21,496 nt of DNA from a virus, in IMG/VR virus record IMGVR_UViG_3300033148_001961, positions 1-21,496 of that record; one strand, given 5' to 3'. Position numbers and translations under genes: made by a program. Every line of letters starts with the position of its first letter. Position 1 is the stretch's first letter. The notes beneath the pieces are model-generated. The model ran no database searches. It was not told the origin of the DNA and saw only the letters and a list, made by a program, of their open reading frames with translations. Shown here one piece after another: positions 3,402 through 18,962 of the stretch.

Positions 3402-3832
3402 TGCCTACCTCACAGACGCAAGAAGTTGGACCCGATGGTGGGCTTCCAAGAGATTACTTGCCCCAAATTGAGAAGAATGATATTCCAAAATTCATCAGAA
3501 TTCTTCAGAAACATGCGGTTAAGGTGACTTTGGAGGTAGTTCCTGCTTTTGCTATCAAACCCTTACAAACAGACGTAAACAAAGAAAAGTTAAGGGATAT
3601 GCAGCCTCACATCTATGACTTCGCAGATGACCCGTTTATCGTTTCGGATGGTCTGTACCTGTTGGACGGGCACCATCGTTGGTTGATAATCAAAGGCAGT
3701 AATAAAGATGCGCCTATACGGGCCATCCATGTTCATTTACCTATAGCTGCGTTACTTAGATTGGCCCATAAGTATACCAAATCCTATAGGCGTGGAGACG
3801 AAGATGATACGGTTGATGGACCTCTTAACTGA
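3401..3832 (+). CDS. ParB/sulfiredoxin-like domain protein
   Basis: 143 residues. The segment I-K-P-L-Q-T-D-V-N (about 52-60) followed by a helix, then G-L-Y-L-L-D-G-H-H-R-W (84-94) and a beta strand P-I-R-A-I-H-V, matches the order of the ParB/sulfiredoxin fold. There D-G-x-H-R is the nucleotide-binding signature. Known members bind CTP or ATP or cut DNA; which activity this one has cannot be read from sequence. It lacks the helix-turn-helix part of a chromosome-partition ParB, so it is not a partition protein. It starts in the stop codon of the previous gene and its last 29 bases overlap the start of the cupin gene, so the three genes are likely translated together. Position between TerL and portal is unusual for such a domain. 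Confidence 0.85.
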   Translation: MPTSQTQEVGPDGGLPRDYLPQIEKNDIPKFIRILQKHAVKVTLEVVPAFAIKPLQTDVNKEKLRDMQPHIYDFADDPFIVSDGLYLLDGHHRWLIIKGSNKDAPIRAIHVHLPIAALLRLAHKYTKSYRRGDEDDTVDGPLN

Positions 3833-4199
3833 AGGCACTCAATTTGAAGGTGGCTTCGGAATAGACATTGAGAAAGCCACGGTTGATAACAAAAACTTTC
3901 GTAAGGTGTTGTATACTACTCACCAAATGCAGTTAGTTGTCATGTCCATAGATACGGACATTGGTGAAGAAGTTCATAGAGGAACAACGCAATTTATACG
4001 AGTTGAGAAGGGTGAAGGTGTGGCGATCATTGATGGTAAGAAACATCCAATGTTGGCCGAGGATTCCATTGTAATTCCGGGAGGATCGAAGCATAACATT
4101 ATCAACACAGGCGATTCTCCACTAAAAGTATATTCATTGTATGCTCCTCCACACCATCCAGACGGAACCATACACAGGACAAAGAAAGATGCAGAATAA
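3804..4199 (+). CDS. Cupin protein with capsid-targeting-like leader
   Basis: 131 residues from the ATG at 3804, preceded by GGAG at 3794-3797 with six bases of spacing; this start lies inside the end of the ParB-like gene. The cupin barrel is clear: E-E-V-H58 then Q63-F-I-R-V-E-K-G-E-G, D-G-K, and I-V-I-P-G-G-S-K-H97-N-I-I-N-T-G-D. It ends in the characteristic Y-A-P-P-H-H-P-D-G-T-I-H. H58, Q63 and H97 are candidate metal ligands. The barrel closely resembles a common bacterial single-domain cupin often labelled mannose-6-phosphate isomerase-like, whose substrate is not established. The first ten residues, M-I-R-L-M-D-L-L-T-E, are the same kind of leader as in neighbouring phage genes. This suggests a host-derived enzyme or sensor fused to a head-targeting peptide (inference). 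Confidence 0.92.
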   Translation: MIRLMDLLTEGTQFEGGFGIDIEKATVDNKNFRKVLYTTHQMQLVVMSIDTDIGEEVHRGTTQFIRVEKGEGVAIIDGKKHPMLAEDSIVIPGGSKHNIINTGDSPLKVYSLYAPPHHPDGTIHRTKKDAE

Positions 4200-9243: not shown

Positions 9244-9606
9244 ATGACTTTTGATATCAAGAAATTCCTCGCTGAAAACAAGATCCAGTTGCATGAGAAG
9301 AAGCATAATTGGAACGCTCTCGCGGGTATGTTAGAAAAGGTAGCCAAGTCTGTTCTCGCTCAAGGACGAAAATCTTGGTCGGATGGTAGTGGCCACGATA
9401 AAGACATGCAAAAGATGTATCAGCAGGATTACAAAGACCATATGAGAATCGCCAAACTTCTCAGAGCTGGTAAGATTGAAGCAGCGTCAAATACCGCAGA
9501 TCGTTTAGATACAGGATCACGCGATTGGATTCCGGGAGCAGTATGGGATGCGATGGACGATGAACTAGGCTACAATCGAGAAAAAGGTTGGGACAATGAC
9601 CGTTGA
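9244..9606 (+). CDS. Small protein with the same leader as its upstream neighbour
   Basis: 120 residues; AGGGGTGA just upstream gives the ribosome site. The leader is M-T-F-D-I-K-K-F-L-A-E-N-K-I-Q-L-H-E, matching the previous gene at most positions. After it the sequence is unrelated: a helix to about residue 50, then a charged part with W-S-D-G-S-G-H-D-K-D-M and an acidic end W-D-A-M-D-D-E-L-G-Y. No known domain. Shared leader plus different cargo fits a modular head-targeted protein. Its last 11 bases overlap the next gene. Confidence 0.83.
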   Translation: MTFDIKKFLAENKIQLHEKKHNWNALAGMLEKVAKSVLAQGRKSWSDGSGHDKDMQKMYQQDYKDHMRIAKLLRAGKIEAASNTADRLDTGSRDWIPGAVWDAMDDELGYNREKGWDNDR

Positions 9607-10591
9607 ACGGAAAGTTCGTGAGTATGTCCGAGAGGCAATTAGAGAAGCGTTAGCATCTACTCACACAACCGAAGCCTATAAAGGTGATGGCCAAGAAGTC
9701 ACTAATAAGAAAGGTGAAGCTATGGACATCCCCGATAAGGAATTTCGTGAAGCACAGAAGACGGAACCTACGCAGGTGGTTCAAATGGACGAACCGTTCA
9801 AGGTTCAAACTAAGGAAGGTCCAGCCGATGGTGATGCAGGTGATTATCTGGCCAAGGGAGTTGAAGGTGAGATGTGGCCTATTGATCAAGAAATCTTTGA
9901 CAAGACTCATGAGTTTGTTGATGAAGGTTGTAAGGAAGGGGCGGGCGAAGAAGCTGAAGCATTGGGAAATGGAACCAAGGCACGTGTCGCAGCTGCTTTG
10001 AACAAGCTACGAAAGTTGCCAGAGCCAGAACTACGTAAGAAACGCAAGGCTATCAACATTGCACTAGACGATATGCGTACTGGTAAGACACATTTCTCGC
10101 CGGGAAAAGAAGCATCGAAGACAAGAGCGACAAAAGGTTTAGAGTTATACTTGAAGCTGGTGATTTTAGCGATGGACACTCAGCAGGGAAAAGCGGCGAG
10201 CGGAGTCAAGTCGGAAGCCGCTGGGAAAAAGTCAGTACCCATAACTGCCGTGATAGAGAAGAAGTTAATCGCTGCATTCGCTAAGTCAAAACTGAGTACG
10301 TTGAGACAAGAACAAGATAAGATTATTAAAAAAATACGTCGAGCGTCCTCAACAGGAGATACCGACCAGCTACAAATTTTACAACACCTTGATAAGATTG
10401 TAGCGGCAGCAATAGACAAACAACAGTTTGGTGAGGGAATGAAAGAAGCAACATCATCTGGTATTAAAAAGGCTGTAGATAAGGGAACAATAACGCATGT
10501 CGAATGTAATTCATGTGGTAAGATATTCAAAGCTACTAAGAGCGATGCAGAATGTCCAAAATGTGGTCGTTCGGATTTTGATATAGCGTAG
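9596..10591 (+). CDS. Multi-part protein: PGD/GE-type domain plus C-terminal zinc ribbon
   Basis: 331 residues. An N-terminal amphipathic helix (R-E-Y-V-R-E-A-I-R-E-A-L) is followed at about 58-109 by F-K-V-Q-T-K-E-G, G-D-Y-L-A-K-G-V-E-G-E-M-W-P-I and F-D-K-T-H-E. These match the recurring pattern P-G-D-x-I-x-x-G-x-x-G-E-x-Y-P-x-x-x-x-x-F-x-x-T-Y-E of small phage proteins of unknown function. The middle (120-290) is Lys/Ala-rich and helical, likely coiled coil. The end has C304-x2-C307 and C320-x2-C323, a four-cysteine zinc ribbon ending G-R-S-D-F-D-I. The role is unknown; the zinc ribbon suggests binding of nucleic acid or a protein partner. Confidence 0.87.
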   Translation: MTVERKVREYVREAIREALASTHTTEAYKGDGQEVTNKKGEAMDIPDKEFREAQKTEPTQVVQMDEPFKVQTKEGPADGDAGDYLAKGVEGEMWPIDQEIFDKTHEFVDEGCKEGAGEEAEALGNGTKARVAAALNKLRKLPEPELRKKRKAINIALDDMRTGKTHFSPGKEASKTRATKGLELYLKLVILAMDTQQGKAASGVKSEAAGKKSVPITAVIEKKLIAAFAKSKLSTLRQEQDKIIKKIRRASSTGDTDQLQILQHLDKIVAAAIDKQQFGEGMKEATSSGIKKAVDKGTITHVECNSCGKIFKATKSDAECPKCGRSDFDIA

Positions 10592-11845: not shown

Positions 11846-12219
11846 TGGGGAAGAGATTAGTTGCGGTTAAGAAAAGATTTGAGTCGAAGCTTAACGGTTC
11901 GTTATCTTGGACTTACATTATGATTGACGAAGCCCCAACTACCAACCTTCGTATCATATTGACACTAATGATGGCAGTAGGAACAGCCATTCGATATTGG
12001 GTGGCAATAGGTTCAGATTCTTGGTCGCCTAGTCCCGAATGGTTAATATTTTTGGCGGGAATGAGTGGGTTAGACGTGTGGCAGCATTACAATAAAAGAA
12101 AGACAACTTTTTCACCTCAAGATATGGCAGAGGCGAGTCTTACTGACGCTCAGGCGACGGTACTTAGGAATGGACACGCACTACCGGAATCTCAACAAGA
12201 CGATGAGGAAATCGGTTAA
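11845..12219 (+). CDS. Small two-segment membrane protein, holin-like
   Basis: 124 residues, starting in the stop codon of the previous gene. Two hydrophobic segments are visible: about 34-56 (L-R-I-I-L-T-L-M-M-A-V-G-T-A-I-R-Y-W) and about 64-80 (E-W-L-I-F-L-A-G-M-S-G-L-D-V-W-Q). A short Ser/Pro loop separates them, and H-Y-N-K-R-K-T follows. The N-terminus is basic and the last 35 residues are polar and acidic. Size and layout recall small phage membrane proteins, some of which are holins, but no holin family signature can be confirmed. It sits directly upstream of the receiver-domain gene. Confidence 0.83.
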   Translation: MGKRLVAVKKRFESKLNGSLSWTYIMIDEAPTTNLRIILTLMMAVGTAIRYWVAIGSDSWSPSPEWLIFLAGMSGLDVWQHYNKRKTTFSPQDMAEASLTDAQATVLRNGHALPESQQDDEEIG

Positions 12220-12238
12220 ACTCACTAATGAGAACTAT

Positions 12239-12745
12239 ATGAATCAGTTATCGGCGAAGGAAGTGGCTAGCTTACCACAAAAGTATGTAACAACGATGTT
12301 GTTGGATGATGATGCAAGCTACAGGAGGTTTTTTTCGACAACAATGATAGAACCGGGTCCATGTACAAATGGACACGGATTGGTCAACTTACACATTAAT
12401 CTTATCATGGCCGCTTCTCTTTCAATAGGAATTGAGTTGGTTAGAGAGCAGCCCCCTGAAATGGTGTTACTGGACATACACATAGATTTTTTGGATCCGA
12501 TTCAAAGTCTTGCGGAACTTCAAGTCGTGTATGATGGTCCTATCGTAGCGTTAACGGACTCCGTAGATCCAGATCGTACCGTTCGATATCATTCGGCGGG
12601 TGTACATGATGTTTTAGATAAGAGTAGAATGACCCCGGGAATTTTAAGAAGTGCTGTTATACACGCTTTGATGTCTAAAGATTCTACTCTGTCAACACAA
12701 AAGGTGATGGCAAAACAATTACACGGGAATTTATTTGGGGTTTAA
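12239..12745 (+). CDS. Stand-alone CheY-like receiver domain protein
   Basis: 168 residues. The fold signature is clear: acidic pocket V-T-T-M-L-L-D-D-D (D23-D25), phosphoacceptor candidate D79 in E-M-V-L-L-D-I-H-I, T106 in P-I-V-A-L-T-D, and K128 in A-G-V-H-D-V-L-D-K-S. The spacing T106-K128 (22) equals that of CheY. D24-D79 (55) is longer by about eleven residues, and the Gly usually found after the phosphoacceptor loop is absent. There is no output domain. The start is uncertain: the ATG at 12239 has a weak GAG seven bases upstream and does not overlap the previous gene, while ATGs at 12203 and 12170 are also in frame. It lies between two small membrane-protein genes. Phosphorylation by a host kinase is possible but unproven. 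Confidence 0.83.
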   Translation: MNQLSAKEVASLPQKYVTTMLLDDDASYRRFFSTTMIEPGPCTNGHGLVNLHINLIMAASLSIGIELVREQPPEMVLLDIHIDFLDPIQSLAELQVVYDGPIVALTDSVDPDRTVRYHSAGVHDVLDKSRMTPGILRSAVIHALMSKDSTLSTQKVMAKQLHGNLFGV

Positions 12746-13081
12746 ATGGAAGACTTAGCACTATACCAGATGTTAACTGGGTTACTTCAACAAATCGCCG
12801 ATTTACGAGTAGAACAAAGCCAATGGTCAGGAGATTTCGACGCTAGATTAGATGGATTGAAAGATCATATCGGTAGATCAGATGTTTGTATCGTCCATTC
12901 CGAGAAATTGGTTGATCTGGAAGGACGATTGTCTACTTTAGAAAAAGCGGCTGACATAGCAGAAAAAGCGGCTGCACGTGCAGCACGTGGTACAAAGAAG
13001 AACTCATACGTTGTGTGGGCCGCACTGATTACTGCCATTGGAACGTTAGGGGCAGTACTTTTACAATTATGGATTCCATAG
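12746..13081 (+). CDS. Coiled-coil protein with C-terminal membrane anchor
   Basis: 111 residues, beginning directly after the stop of the receiver gene. Residues 1-80 form a long helix with heptad-like hydrophobics (L-E-G-R-L-S-T-L-E-K-A and an Ala-rich A-E-K-A-A-A-R-A-A-R). A basic G-T-K-K-N patch precedes one membrane segment at about 88-110 (Y-V-V-W-A-A-L-I-T-A-I-G-T-L-G-A-V-L-L-Q-L-W). The layout, cytoplasmic coil then a tail anchor, is like that of XhlA-type and other phage lysis-associated proteins, but sequence identity to them cannot be judged here. Together with the two-segment membrane protein and the receiver it forms a three-gene group. Confidence 0.83.
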   Translation: MEDLALYQMLTGLLQQIADLRVEQSQWSGDFDARLDGLKDHIGRSDVCIVHSEKLVDLEGRLSTLEKAADIAEKAAARAARGTKKNSYVVWAALITAIGTLGAVLLQLWIP

Positions 13082-13097: not shown

Positions 13098-13670
13098 ATG
13101 ACATATTCACCCGATTTACGAATCGCTGAAGTAGTAAACTTATTGAGTGGGATATCGAAAACGTTTATCTCATCATTGAATCAAGCTGAAGAGGCTTACG
13201 CCAATCTGTTAGAGGCCAAGGGAACTTGGAACAATACGGAATGGGCTCAGGTTCTTCATGGATTGCCTAGCGTCTCATCGTCGCTCACGGTTTCAGCATC
13301 GTTGAAAACAGTTTCTTGCGTACCAGGCGCTAATTTGTTTGTACCACCATCGCCACGTAACCAGTTGGTTCAAGCCTTCCAGCCTGGAAGGAAAGTAACG
13401 ATCACTGGTATGAGTAATGGTGGCAACAATATTACAAATGCACTTATTACATCTGTCAGTCCGGATGTTCTTGAGTTTAGTGATATTGATACATTCGTAG
13501 ATGAAACTGGAACGGAAGCAGAAGCGGCAACACAACCTACTCAAGACGAGTTGGATAGAACGGCAGCATTGGTAGACGCAGGTGTTGCGATGCATGAATT
13601 GTATGAGGCGGCAACGAATGTCGCTGTAGCTACAGAAGACCGCATGGATGTATTGCGGCGAATAAGTTAA
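13098..13670 (+). CDS. Unknown protein with a small beta-barrel-like core
   Basis: 190 residues with a very strong ribosome site (GGGAGAGAAGGA). The N-terminal ~60 residues are helical. Residues 75-135 carry a beta-type segment: F-Q-P-G-R-K-V-T-I-T-G-M-S-N-G-G-N-N, then T-S-V-S-P-D-V-L-E-F-S-D. This is a pattern found in barrel-like repeats of phage structural proteins. The C-terminal 50 residues are again helical and acidic. No catalytic residues are apparent. A virion-associated role is a guess from context and composition. Confidence 0.83.
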   Translation: MTYSPDLRIAEVVNLLSGISKTFISSLNQAEEAYANLLEAKGTWNNTEWAQVLHGLPSVSSSLTVSASLKTVSCVPGANLFVPPSPRNQLVQAFQPGRKVTITGMSNGGNNITNALITSVSPDVLEFSDIDTFVDETGTEAEAATQPTQDELDRTAALVDAGVAMHELYEAATNVAVATEDRMDVLRRIS

Positions 13671-13691: not shown

Positions 13692-13919
13692 ATGTATGTG
13701 GAAGTAAGAGGTTCTGATGATGTGGCGTTGCAAAGAGCTCTGACAGAGTTTAAACGTCAAGTCAAGAAAGCCGGTCTTTTCGAAGACCTGAAGAAGCATG
13801 AATATTTTGTCAAGCCTTCCCTTCGCAAGAAGTTGAAGAGCGTTGAAGCAACCAAAAGAAAACGGAGAGAGGAAAATGAGGCCTTACGACGAAGCAAAAA
13901 TGCGCGAGATGATTCGTGA
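13692..13919 (+). CDS. rpsU: Phage-encoded ribosomal protein bS21
   Basis: 75 residues, close to the usual bS21 length. It has the family pattern: an N-terminal strand V-E-V-R, then D-D-V-A-L-Q-R-A-L-T-E-F-K-R-Q-V-K-K-A-G-L, then L-K-K-H-E-Y-F-V-K-P-S and a long basic helix with K-R-K-R-R. bS21 sits on the small ribosomal subunit near the anti-Shine-Dalgarno region and helps initiation. Phage copies are known, for example in pelagiphage HTVC008M and in very large phages, where they are thought to favour phage mRNA. AGAGG upstream gives the ribosome site. The last 44 bases overlap the next gene, whose own ribosome site lies within this coding sequence. The tail is more acidic than in most bacterial copies. 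Confidence 0.93.
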   Translation: MYVEVRGSDDVALQRALTEFKRQVKKAGLFEDLKKHEYFVKPSLRKKLKSVEATKRKRREENEALRRSKNARDDS

Positions 13920-14109
13920 AGAAGTAAAGAGAGTTTTGACCGAAGGCGGCATTACTCTCAAAGAAGGTCGTGGTAAAAAAGGAAGTCGGGTTCGTACTAT
14001 TCATGGTGTAGGTACGATTCTTAGTTGTAACGGAGATCAAGTGAACGTGTCGCTGGATTCCGGTGCTACGATGAAGGTACATAGAGATAGAGCAACCGTC
14101 ATTGGGTAA
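13876..14109 (+). CDS. Small SH3-like protein with leader ending L-T-E
   Basis: 77 residues from the ATG at 13876, chosen because GGAGAGG lies just upstream inside the bS21 gene. The first ~23 residues are a charged amphipathic helix (M-R-E-M-I-R-E-E-V-K-R-V-L-T-E) ending in L-T-E/G, then L-K-E/G: two I/L-x-E sites like those in the leader-bearing genes. The rest (about 35-77) alternates like a small five-stranded barrel (T-I-H-G-V-G-T-I-L-S, V-N-V-S-L-D-S-G, R-D-R-A-T-V-I-G). It may be a small internal head protein or an RNA-associated factor; no function is assigned. Confidence 0.82.
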   Translation: MRPYDEAKMREMIREEVKRVLTEGGITLKEGRGKKGSRVRTIHGVGTILSCNGDQVNVSLDSGATMKVHRDRATVIG

Positions 14110-14336
14110 TGGGGATGGGCTGCAACTGCAGTAATAGAGCACATAAGTTACTTCAGTATCTCAGATTTGATGTCATAGATCAGATATGGAATAAGTCTTC
14201 AGATACGAATTCTGGCAAAATATTCAAATATGAAAATGATAGAATTCGTGTGATTTTACCAATGTTGGTGGTGAGTAGAAAACATTTTCGGTCATCGCTT
14301 ACAGCGTTATTTATTAGGTTACTATGGGGAAAATAA
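14109..14336 (+). CDS. Short hypothetical protein
   Basis: 75 residues, starting in the previous stop codon (TAATG) like many genes here. No clear ribosome site apart from GGG at 14105-14107. It opens M-G-M-G-C-N-C-S-N, contains charged residues and ends with a basic hydrophobic stretch (L-L-W-G-K). No family is recognised. The coupled start supports it; the unusual composition of the second half means it could be a chance open frame. Confidence 0.45.
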   Translation: MGMGCNCSNRAHKLLQYLRFDVIDQIWNKSSDTNSGKIFKYENDRIRVILPMLVVSRKHFRSSLTALFIRLLWGK

Positions 14337-14366
14337 GTTACACTAATAATATAACAGGAGATAAAT

Positions 14367-14474
14367 ATGGCCGGATGTACGGTTTGTAAGGGATGTGGAT
14401 ATCCAGTAGAAGAATCCGATGACTTTTGTTGGAAGTGTGGTGCAGCGTTGGGATGTAAAAAAGTTGTAGAGTAA
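14367..14474 (+). CDS. 35-residue cysteine-rich microprotein, copy 1
   Basis: Begins at the ATG at 14367 after a strong AGGAG (14356-14360 region) and ends at TAA 14472-14474. It has six cysteines at positions 4, 7, 10, 21, 24 and 30, with C-x2-C and C-x-C-G elements, the pattern of a small zinc ribbon. The second half reads F-C-W-K-C-G-A-A-L-G-C-K-K-V-V-E. A second gene of the same length and pattern follows after 43 bases. Two copies with matching cysteines but altered other residues show selection on the protein. Function unknown; a metal-binding adaptor to a host protein or RNA is one possibility. Confidence 0.82.
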   Translation: MAGCTVCKGCGYPVEESDDFCWKCGAALGCKKVVE

Positions 14475-14517
14475 AATTTTGAATGGTTTTGTTTAATTCA
14501 AACTTTGGAGATAACTC

Positions 14518-14625
14518 ATGGCTGGATGTACAGAATGTAAGGCATGTGGTGCGCATACCTTAGAAGACGATAATTTTTGTAGAAGCTGCGGTGCAGCGTT
14601 GGGATGTAAAAAAGTTATAGAATAA
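14518..14625 (+). CDS. 35-residue cysteine-rich microprotein, copy 2
   Basis: Paralogue of the preceding gene, preceded by TTGGAGATAA. It has the same length (35 residues) and the same six cysteines (4, 7, 10, 21, 24, 30). The ends are almost identical (C-G-A-A-L-G-C-K-K-V-I-E), while residues 5-20 differ, with C-T-E-C-K-A-C-G and H-T-L-E-D-D-N-F. The DNA stretch coding for the last third is nearly unchanged between the copies, which points to fairly recent duplication. It is the last gene before the terminator at 14654-14698. Confidence 0.82.
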   Translation: MAGCTECKACGAHTLEDDNFCRSCGAALGCKKVIE

Positions 14626-14653: not shown

Positions 14654-14698
14654 AGTGTCGTTAAACCTCCCCTATGGAGTAGTTTAGCGGCACTTTTT
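14654..14698 (+). terminator. Rho-independent terminator closing the accessory island
   Basis: A 13-pair stem (14654-14666 with 14682-14694, two G-U pairs) encloses a loop that itself can pair CTCC with GGAG. TTTTT follows at 14694-14698. It lies 28 bases after the last microprotein gene and before the scaffold gene, so transcription of the two blocks can be separated here. Confidence 0.85.
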
Positions 14699-14724
14699 GA
14701 TTTAAATTGAATGTTTCTAACTCA

Positions 14725-14741
14725 TCCATACTATTTATGGA
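14725..14741 (+). repeat. Short inverted repeat upstream of scaffold gene
   Basis: TCCATA and TATGGA flank CTATT, a perfect six-base inverted repeat. On the opposite strand the centre reads CATAAATAG, which resembles the core of a T4-type late promoter, but in the wrong direction for the scaffold gene. It may be an operator, a weak hairpin or chance. Confidence 0.4.
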
Positions 14742-14748
14742 CACCAAT

Positions 14749-14766
14749 ACATCTTGCTTAAGATGT
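14749..14766 (+). other. Hairpin in the leader of the scaffold gene
   Basis: ACATCTT and AAGATGT form a perfect seven-base stem around the tetraloop GCTT, 68 bases before the scaffold start. There is no T-run after it, so it is not a terminator. It could stabilise or regulate the mRNA of the highly expressed scaffold and capsid genes. Confidence 0.45.
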
Positions 14767-14833
14767 CTGCAGCAAATATGTTAATCTATGTAGGGACTCT
14801 TCATAATAGTCTCTTAACCTTTCGGGGAAACAA

Positions 14834-16276
14834 ATGGCAAAGAAAAAGAATACTCTCTTAGCTGATGCTATTGCTGATGCGAAAGCAGTTCGTGAAACTG
14901 CACTTGCAAACGCAAAGGTCGCTTTAGAAGAGGCATTCACTCCCCATCTAACTTCCATGCTATCGGCACGCCTTCGTAATGAGGCGGAAGACTTTGATGG
15001 TGATGACGAGTTGGATGAACTCAACGATCCTATTCCATCGGCAGATGGTTATGGTTCGGATGAAGGTGGTGAGACTGATATCGAAGCAGTTGAGAAGTCT
15101 TCGTTCACAGAAGCAGCGGTTGACGTTGGTTCTGGAGTCGAGAATGACTCTAAGTTAGATTCTTCGGACATCGGCACTGGTCCGGAAAATGAGTATGGTG
15201 ATATGAACGCTAAGGAGCCTTCGAAGGCTACACGTTCAAGTTCTCATATTGCTAACGATGACAAGCTCGGTATGAACGAAGATTTTGACGAGTTTGATGA
15301 TGAGGAAGATGATGGTATGATGATGGCCGCGGACGAAGTTCCCGGCGATGATGGTGCTGAGTTAGACTTCGCACCAGAGATGGGCGGACAAGACGATTTG
15401 GGTGGTGATGAAATGGGCGGTGACCCAATGGCTGGCGGTATGGGCGGTGACCCAATGGCTGGTGCAGATATGGGTGGTGACCCAATGGGCGATCCTATGG
15501 CTGGCGGTGAGTTTGGTGGCGAAGAGGAACCGGAAGATTTGGACCTTGAAGCTATTATTCGTGAACTTGAAGCAGACATGGTTGCACCTGAAGATGAGTT
15601 TGAAGCACCTGTAGGCGACGATGGTATGGAAGAAGATCCATACGCGCTTGGTGAAGAAGTTGACCTTCCTTCAGCAGCCGACGGACATGGCAGCGACGAA
15701 GGTGGTGAGACGGACAACGAAGCGATTCGTAAGAAGTCATTCACGCAGGGTATGGGCGAGAAACAAACTGGTCCTATCTCTGAACAGGACGATGAAGAAA
15801 TCGACCTAGAAGAAATTCTTCGTGAAATCGAAGATGAAGAAAGCTCTGACGAACTGGAAACAGAGAACACGGAGTTGAAGGGCGAGCTGAAAGAGTACCG
15901 GGACGCGGTAAGATTCCTGCGTAGTAAGCTCAATGAGGTTAATCTCCTCAACGCAAAATTACTATACACGAACAAATTGTTCAAGAATTACAATATGGAC
16001 GGAAGACAGAAGCTTCGTGTTGTAGAGAATTTTGATAGAGCAGGCACTGTACGTGAGGCGAAGCTTGTATTCGCAACCCTCGCGGAATCCTTCAAGGGTA
16101 AGCCTGTAACGCGTAAGCGTTCCATTACCGAAGGATTGGCTTCGAAGAGAACTGGTAGCACGCGCTCAAGGCGAAAGGTCGAGGAAACTTCCACGGAAGA
16201 GAACACTCCGACGATCCTAGCGGAAGGCACGCAGCTGGCAGCTAGATTCAAGAAGTTAGCAGGAATCAACCAATAA
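14834..16276 (+). CDS. 22: Prohead scaffold protein (T4 gp22-like)
   Basis: 480 residues, against 269 in T4 gp22. GGGGAA precedes the ATG. The N-terminus L-L-A-D-A-I-A-D-A-K-A-V-R-E-T and the C-terminal helix L-R-S-K-L-N-E-V-N-L-L-N-A-K-L-L-Y-T-N-K-L-F (about 362-383) fit T4-like scaffolds, and the last residues R-F-K-K-L-A-G-I are a conserved end. Between them lies a very acidic region (50-345). It includes Met/Gly-rich repeats G-G-D-P-M-A-G (about 190-228) and a duplicated block: P-S-A-D-G-Y-G-S-D-E-G-G-E-T-D at 68 and P-S-A-A-D-G-H-G-S-D-E-G-G-E-T-D at 279. D-L-E-A-I-I-R-E-L-E (237) and D-L-E-E-I-L-R-E-I-E (324) also match. Many I/L-x-E sites suit removal by the gene 21 protease. Confidence 0.92.
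   Translation: MAKKKNTLLADAIADAKAVRETALANAKVALEEAFTPHLTSMLSARLRNEAEDFDGDDELDELNDPIPSADGYGSDEGGETDIEAVEKSSFTEAAVDVGSGVENDSKLDSSDIGTGPENEYGDMNAKEPSKATRSSSHIANDDKLGMNEDFDEFDDEEDDGMMMAADEVPGDDGAELDFAPEMGGQDDLGGDEMGGDPMAGGMGGDPMAGADMGGDPMGDPMAGGEFGGEEEPEDLDLEAIIRELEADMVAPEDEFEAPVGDDGMEEDPYALGEEVDLPSAADGHGSDEGGETDNEAIRKKSFTQGMGEKQTGPISEQDDEEIDLEEILREIEDEESSDELETENTELKGELKEYRDAVRFLRSKLNEVNLLNAKLLYTNKLFKNYNMDGRQKLRVVENFDRAGTVREAKLVFATLAESFKGKPVTRKRSITEGLASKRTGSTRSRRKVEETSTEENTPTILAEGTQLAARFKKLAGINQ
15413..15507 (+). repeat. Imperfect tandem repeats coding for Gly-Asp-Pro-Met-Ala-Gly
   Basis: Two perfect 23-base copies begin at 15413 and 15440, and a diverged third begins at 15470, inside the scaffold gene. 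The repeat unit encodes M-G-G-D-P-M-A-G. It is likely a slippage- or recombination-prone stretch that changes the length of the scaffold's flexible region. Confidence 0.85.
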
Positions 16277-18114: not shown

Positions 18115-18143
18115 AGGAAGGAGTGATTACAATGGAGGTTACT

Positions 18144-18962
18144 ATGAACACAAGAAAATGTCCGGAATGTGGACGTGAAATAGTTTACAAGAGCAAATAT
18201 CGTAGAAATTGGGCAGAATCAAACAGATTAATCTGCAACTACTGCTCCAGTGCCCATGCAGCCAAAGCTCGATCAGACAAAAAGAGAGCACGGGGAGAAT
18301 TTCTTACTCGTTCATGTCCTAAATGTAACAAATTGATTGTATATACTATGCATGATAATAGAAATAGGGCCGAAAAGAAAGGATCGGTATGTAATCAATG
18401 TGCAGTCAGATCATCACCAGAAATATCCAAGAAAATCAGTGAAACACTTAAGGGACGAAAATATCCTGATAGAGTTAGTAATATTAAGGGAGAAGAAAAC
18501 TACTTTCGTAAATGTCCCAATTGTAAGAAAAGCTTAGGATATAAATCTAAATATGCCAGAGACAGAGCAGAGAAAAGTGGGTCTGTATGTAATCCTTGTT
18601 CCAACATACTTTACAAAAAATCCTGGTCATATGTTATCAAAAATGAACATATTCAGAAGATGGCAGCAAAGAAAGCAGGATATGAAACCTACTCAGCATA
18701 TATGGATGATCTTGAGGCTAAAAAGAAATATTTCAGAGAAGTAAGAGCATTGACACGTAAACAAGATATTACCATCTTACCTAACTATGAGAGACTTTTA
18801 GAAAACCGTGGACTTAATGGTATTAGTGGGGCATACCAGTTAGATCATATCATTTCGGTTAGTGAAGGATACCGACAAAATATCTCACCAAAACAAATTG
18901 CAGATATATCCAATCTTCAGATTATACCTTGGAAAGAAAACCTTCTCAAGTCCAATACGTAG
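18144..18962 (+). CDS. Freestanding HNH homing endonuclease with three zinc ribbons
   Basis: 272 residues from the ATG at 18144, chosen for GGAGG at 18134-18138; an ATG at 18132 with AAGGAG upstream is also good. Three repeats of about 29 residues have the pattern C-P-x-C...Y-x5-R-x2-A-E-x5-C-x2-C (C6/C9/C31/C34, C58/C61/C83/C86, C124/C127/C149/C152), likely DNA-binding zinc fingers. S-P-E-I-S-K-K-I-S-E-T-L-K-G-R at 91-105 resembles a NUMOD3-type DNA-binding helix. The C-terminal HNH part has L-D-H-I-I-S-V (D234, H235), N257-L-Q-I-I-P-W and K-E-N-L-L-K-S-N. The gene is visibly richer in A/T and AGA codons than its neighbours and sits between a terminator and the next gene, as expected for a mobile endonuclease near the conserved capsid gene. 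Confidence 0.93.
   Translation: MNTRKCPECGREIVYKSKYRRNWAESNRLICNYCSSAHAAKARSDKKRARGEFLTRSCPKCNKLIVYTMHDNRNRAEKKGSVCNQCAVRSSPEISKKISETLKGRKYPDRVSNIKGEENYFRKCPNCKKSLGYKSKYARDRAEKSGSVCNPCSNILYKKSWSYVIKNEHIQKMAAKKAGYETYSAYMDDLEAKKKYFREVRALTRKQDITILPNYERLLENRGLNGISGAYQLDHIISVSEGYRQNISPKQIADISNLQIIPWKENLLKSNT

Follow-up and report, generated by a model that had tools for sequence, protein, structure and literature searches.

One-domain zinc-finger micro-proteins of the C(P)XCG type are shorter than 70 aa and carry two C(P)XCG motifs (PMC11241148). The Haloferax proteins HVO_2753 and HVO_0758 (PMC6562870, PMC11241148) are stand-alone proteins of this size with two CXXCG-type motifs, encoded on an archaeal chromosome. 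Among phages, Com of phage Mu is a zinc finger mRNA-binding translational activator (PMC6483171). The Pfam families Zn_Ribbon_1 (PF13240), DZR and Zn_ribbon_3 describe two CxxCG knuckles at ribbon spacing, usually as one domain in a larger protein.

We analysed a 21.5-kb stretch of DNA from an uncultivated virus record, hereafter the window, which contains a T4-like head cassette and two tandem genes, zr1 (14367..14474, +) and zr2 (14518..14625, +), that partly resemble each of these systems. The products of zr1 and zr2 share their small size, their two CXXCG-type motifs and their stand-alone form with the Haloferax micro-proteins, but they are phage-borne, tandem, 35 aa long and rich in cysteine, with six such residues, and lack a convincing sequence family match. 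Their motifs, CKGCG/CKACG and CWKCG/CRSCG, do not contain the proline that the strict C(P)XCG form has in one motif. Residues 7-28 correspond to the Pfam ribbons, except that here the ribbon, extended by C4, C30 and a GCKKV[VI]E tail, makes up the whole protein. Com, likewise a small phage-encoded zinc finger protein and a precedent for an RNA-binding role, belongs to another sequence family; the Com family was absent from PHROGs and from Pfam hits with E values up to 1, and neither Lar nor Ogr/Delta, which are also small phage zinc proteins, appeared among the Pfam, PHROGs and NCBIfam matches of zr1 and zr2. In our assessment, zr1 and zr2 are probably real, translated and duplicated stand-alone zinc-ribbon genes that a T4-like phage carries as optional cargo, last in a transcription unit of its head-gene region.

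The paralogues and their ribbon core

The proteins encoded by zr1 (MAGCTVCKGCGYPVEESDDFCWKCGAALGCKKVVE; 14367-14474) and zr2 (MAGCTECKACGAHTLEDDNFCRSCGAALGCKKVIE; 14518-14625) are identical in length, share cysteines at positions 4, 7, 10, 21, 24 and 30, which gives a cysteine content of 17%, and end alike, exactly as a first-pass annotation of this DNA had reported. They are identical at 24 of 35 residues (69%), and their genes show 75% DNA identity. Since the stop-to-stop frames span only 39 and 36 aa, the two genes are not fragments of larger ORFs. The same annotation had called their ribosome sites strong. Such sites are present in both copies, AGGAG at 14356..14360 (+), 6 nt from the start of zr1, and GGAG at 14507..14510 (+), 7 nt from that of zr2, and are good rather than exceptional, being similar to that of the capsid gene (GGAG, 8 nt).

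Zn_Ribbon_1, for which the curated whole-protein cut-off is 25 bits, matched zr2 above this threshold (27.3 bits) and zr1 below it (22.3 bits, E 1.1e-4). In both copies the match covers residues 7-28, aligned to profile positions 2-23 of 23, and the C7/C10 and C21/C24 pairs form two CxxC knuckles with ribbon spacing in the Pfam alignment; together, the Zn_Ribbon_1, DZR and Zn_ribbon_3 matches span residues 5-28. Foldseek retrieved as best solved matches mostly two-knuckle C4 zinc domains (NZF, RanBP2-type, ArnA and ribosomal L40e-type), many with an rmsd of 0.6-0.9 over 22-23 columns and none with E < 0.001. The underlying AlphaFold2 model (pLDDT 78.6) was built from the two sequences only and is weak evidence; moreover, whether a C(P)XCG pocket contains metal is beyond what AlphaFold2 can tell (PMC11241148). 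PHROGs and NCBIfam gave no convincing family for either protein. The Pfam scores and the C4 zinc neighbours in Foldseek nevertheless leave the zinc-ribbon fold class, as initially proposed, well supported, and zinc binding is likely.

An ordinary zinc ribbon would explain four of the six cysteines. One zinc ion per protein, held by C7, C10, C21 and C24, is most likely, and C4 and C30, just outside the ribbon, may form a disulfide or act as alternative ligands. C4 and C30 had no equivalent in any family, and no match combined them with the tail GCKKV[VI]E. This surplus invites the reading that the proteins are metal buffer, redox or Fe-S peptides, whose six cysteines would bind two or more metal ions or else a cluster without forming a structural ribbon: the high cysteine content, the C4-x2-C7-x2-C10 spacing and the additional C30 are all superfluous for a ribbon. 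However, CxxCG...FCxxCGA is the standard signature of a ribbon and fits the ribbon models, and among sequences of solved structures the ArnA zinc ribbon matches best, albeit weakly (E 0.14). We regard this reading as highly improbable.

Coding evidence and divergence between the copies

The tandem arrangement allows the two copies to be compared with one another. Their 27 DNA differences are split 7/8/12 over codon positions 1, 2 and 3, and site counting gave a pN of 0.205 against a pS of 0.464 (Fisher P = 0.023), so that the comparison of silent and non-silent change suggested in the first-pass annotation points towards constraint. In a neutral simulation that placed 25 random changes over the first 72 nt, the absence of a stop and all five cysteines of this part were retained in 0.13% of cases, and in 0.03% when the ATG had to be retained as well. 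The simulation and the silent to non-silent ratio favour coding at moderate strength, and the overall signal of selection reaches only modest significance.

The differences are distributed unevenly, with 25 in the first 72 nt and 2 in the last 36 (P 0.0008). The shared ending contains a 27-nt run of DNA identity that includes silent positions (P 0.003), and within the last 11 codons the same codon is used for 9 of 10 shared residues. Recent partial gene conversion or recombination fits this ending at least as well as protein selection does. The initial proposal of selection on a zinc-ribbon fold after duplication therefore stands with regard to the fold class and the duplication, but it cannot draw on the shared ending, which is not by itself evidence of fold selection because it is identical in DNA for 27 nt, silent positions included.

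The same data bear on a less favourable reading, namely that the pair consists of recently captured and duplicated zinc-ribbon fragments without useful selection, either decaying cargo or spurious ORFs. The DNA-identical tail suggests recent copying, the P value for selection is modest and no relatives were found (see below), all of which agree with this reading. On the other hand, the cysteines, start, stop and frame have outlasted 25 changes in 72 nt, a rare outcome in the neutral simulation, and both copies retain their ribosome sites. We consider such decaying or spurious ORFs quite unlikely and retain the reading of translated genes.

A swap site in the head cassette

The window encodes a large terminase, a portal and a gp23-type major capsid protein, recognised with PHROGs, together with a prohead-protease-like gene and a scaffold/core gene, recognised through synteny with annotated relatives. 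Among named phages, the capsid protein is most similar to those of Microcystis phage Mel-JY01, the Flavobacterium immuto phages and Rhodothermus phage RM378; closer relatives by capsid identity are the IMG/VR loci L003 (85%), L030 (78%), and L004 and L005 (both 72%). Several other genes of the window are also poorly represented among relatives: a Cupin-domain protein (3792-4199; PF07883, 53 bits) in the terminase/portal interval has no match in the related loci, and a 331-aa protein with a zinc-ribbon-like C-terminus (9596-10591; CNSCG...CPKCG) is almost matchless there. A second accessory stretch comprises the ORFs at 12170-12745, 12746-13081 and 13098-13670, of which the first encodes 191 aa with a response-regulator receiver domain (PF00072, barely over the cut-off) and is not present in relatives. 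Directly 3' of the capsid gene lies a gene for a likely homing-endonuclease-type protein with repeated zinc-knuckle units (18123-18962), which has a relative in the related locus L012.

The zr pair is located between two conserved genes. The left border of the insertion site is a gene for a 77-aa protein (13876..14109, +) found in L003, L004, L005 and L030, and the right border is the prohead scaffold/core gene (14834..16276, +), assigned by synteny; of 37 related loci, 35 have it, placed between the prohead-protease-like and capsid genes. In the scaffold protein, a motif resembling ADG[YH]GSDEGGETD..A..KSFT occurs twice; relatives have it too. From the end of the 77-aa gene (14109) to the scaffold gene (14834), the distance is 724 nt in the window, as opposed to 181 in L003 and 152 in L030, where the site is empty, and other small ORFs occupy the same site elsewhere: a 90-aa ORF in L004, and a related stretch with an HNH endonuclease-like gene in L005. 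The interval is therefore a swap site. In the window, the inserted stretch starts with a putative 75-aa ORF (14109..14336, +), TAATG-coupled to the preceding gene, for which neither a homologue nor a clear ribosome site was found.

Downstream of zr2, an intrinsic terminator (14654..14698, +) closes the upstream unit, with a hairpin (14654-14694; -21.3 kcal/mol, z = -6.0) that runs into TTTTT. A simple terminator scanner did not list this hairpin. An equivalent hairpin is found at the same place in L004 and L005, and none folds in L003 or L030. The leader that follows (14700-14833), between the terminator and the scaffold gene, is conserved in L003, L030 and L004, with the blocks TTGAATGTTT...TACTATTTATG, ACATCTT..AAGATGT and GGGACTC..AATAGTCTC; in L005, the HNH-like gene is inserted in this leader. 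Because the terminator and then the conserved leader come next, the zr pair is the last cargo of the upstream unit, and the earlier placement of the genes at the end of an accessory island, just before a terminator, proved accurate.

No homologue of zr1 or zr2 was found outside the window. A peptide-seed search of IMG/VR gave 52 seed hits, none of which was confirmed; fixed-spacing cysteine DNA patterns gave no homologue in IMG/VR and none among the matches listed for GTDB genomes, and the inspected pattern matches proved to be low-complexity reading frames or unrelated longer proteins (e.g. CMYCSQCG...). The tail motif CG[AT][AP]LGCxK had a single match in IMG/VR, which was spurious. Searches of 22 related virus records, and of 119 related loci (1.2 Mb) with a profile HMM, were equally negative; named phages and plasmids yielded only zinc-ribbon cores (best E 0.4), and Rfam gave no match. 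In Bacteroidota, 25 of 395 genomes contained a match, all in open frames of 91-552 residues and with alignments nearly all confined to the ribbon core (about residues 6-28); these are only zinc-ribbon domains inside larger frames. Immuto and Mel-JY01 each have a small annotated gene before the scaffold gene, of 30 and 50 aa respectively, and neither is rich in cysteine. In two related loci (L009:8234-8407 and L014:8240-8413), the prohead protease gene is immediately followed by a 57-aa zinc-knuckle ORF (CRNCGWQWKF...CHKCGG), which is likewise a small CxxCG...CHKCG protein and occupies nearly the same place, in the protease/scaffold interval. Its similarity is nevertheless limited to the knuckles, and it has different spacing and termini and fewer cysteines, which rules it out as an orthologue on sequence and leaves a positional parallel.

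A lack of conservation in related phages, which the first-pass annotation had named as a result that would refute it, was thus what IMG/VR, the 22 records and the 119 loci showed, and the cross-genome conservation test falls away. This absence is not proof, as exact-pattern scans miss diverged spacing and many of the records searched are fragments. As the genes are present in no relative searched, they are best read as optional cargo rather than as a new kind of system; the missing conservation makes them lineage-specific, not unreal.

Swap-site cargo is a common setting for host-takeover and counter-defence genes. The zr proteins could accordingly be adaptors that bind and block a host RNA polymerase, a nuclease or a defence protein, the duplication raising the dose or widening the range of targets, and both their lineage-specific presence at a swap site and the concentration of their divergence in codons 1-24 would fit such a role. 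Against it, Pfam, PHROGs and NCBIfam gave no match to a known anti-defence or takeover family, and the pair lies not in an early region but in the head cassette, whose expression is usually late. We consider this role unlikely.

Possible function and significance

The fixed neighbours suggest another role for the cargo. Upstream of the pair, a gene for a bS21 ribosomal protein homologue (13692-13919; TIGR00030 49.6 bits, cut-off 28.95) overlaps the 77-aa gene, whose product shows a weak ProQ_C/YajC SH3-like resemblance (ProQ_C 19.5 bits, below the cut-off of 23.3). Six related loci contain the bS21 gene, Mel-JY01 has it in a comparable position, and both it and the 77-aa gene are kept in the four close relatives. 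Phage bS21 beside head genes has already been described and tied to late expression (PMC9723584). A Bacteroidota host, to which bS21 might have pointed, was not confirmed, the similarity of bS21 being weak and spread over several phyla.

Since close relatives retain the genes for phage bS21 and the small ProQ_C-like protein beside this site, our best guess, a tentative one, is that the zr proteins are small adaptors that would bind, late in infection, either RNA or a protein belonging to the gene-expression machinery. It draws on the neighbourhood, and such reasoning is weakened by the fact that the site is a swap site. It is very unlikely that the two genes represent a new family of duplicated stand-alone zinc ribbons whose members, jointly with the adjacent phage bS21 and the ProQ_C-like protein, steer host ribosomes or mRNAs towards late transcripts of the phage.

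The zr pair is a clean example of phage microproteins that fall under the usual length limits and can be recognised from one genome, since the tandem paralogue itself supplies a conservation test. Its position also shows where genes are swapped within the head cassette of RM378/Immutovirus-like T4 relatives. Should the zr proteins act with the neighbouring phage bS21, they would be relevant to the way in which translation is taken over by such phages.
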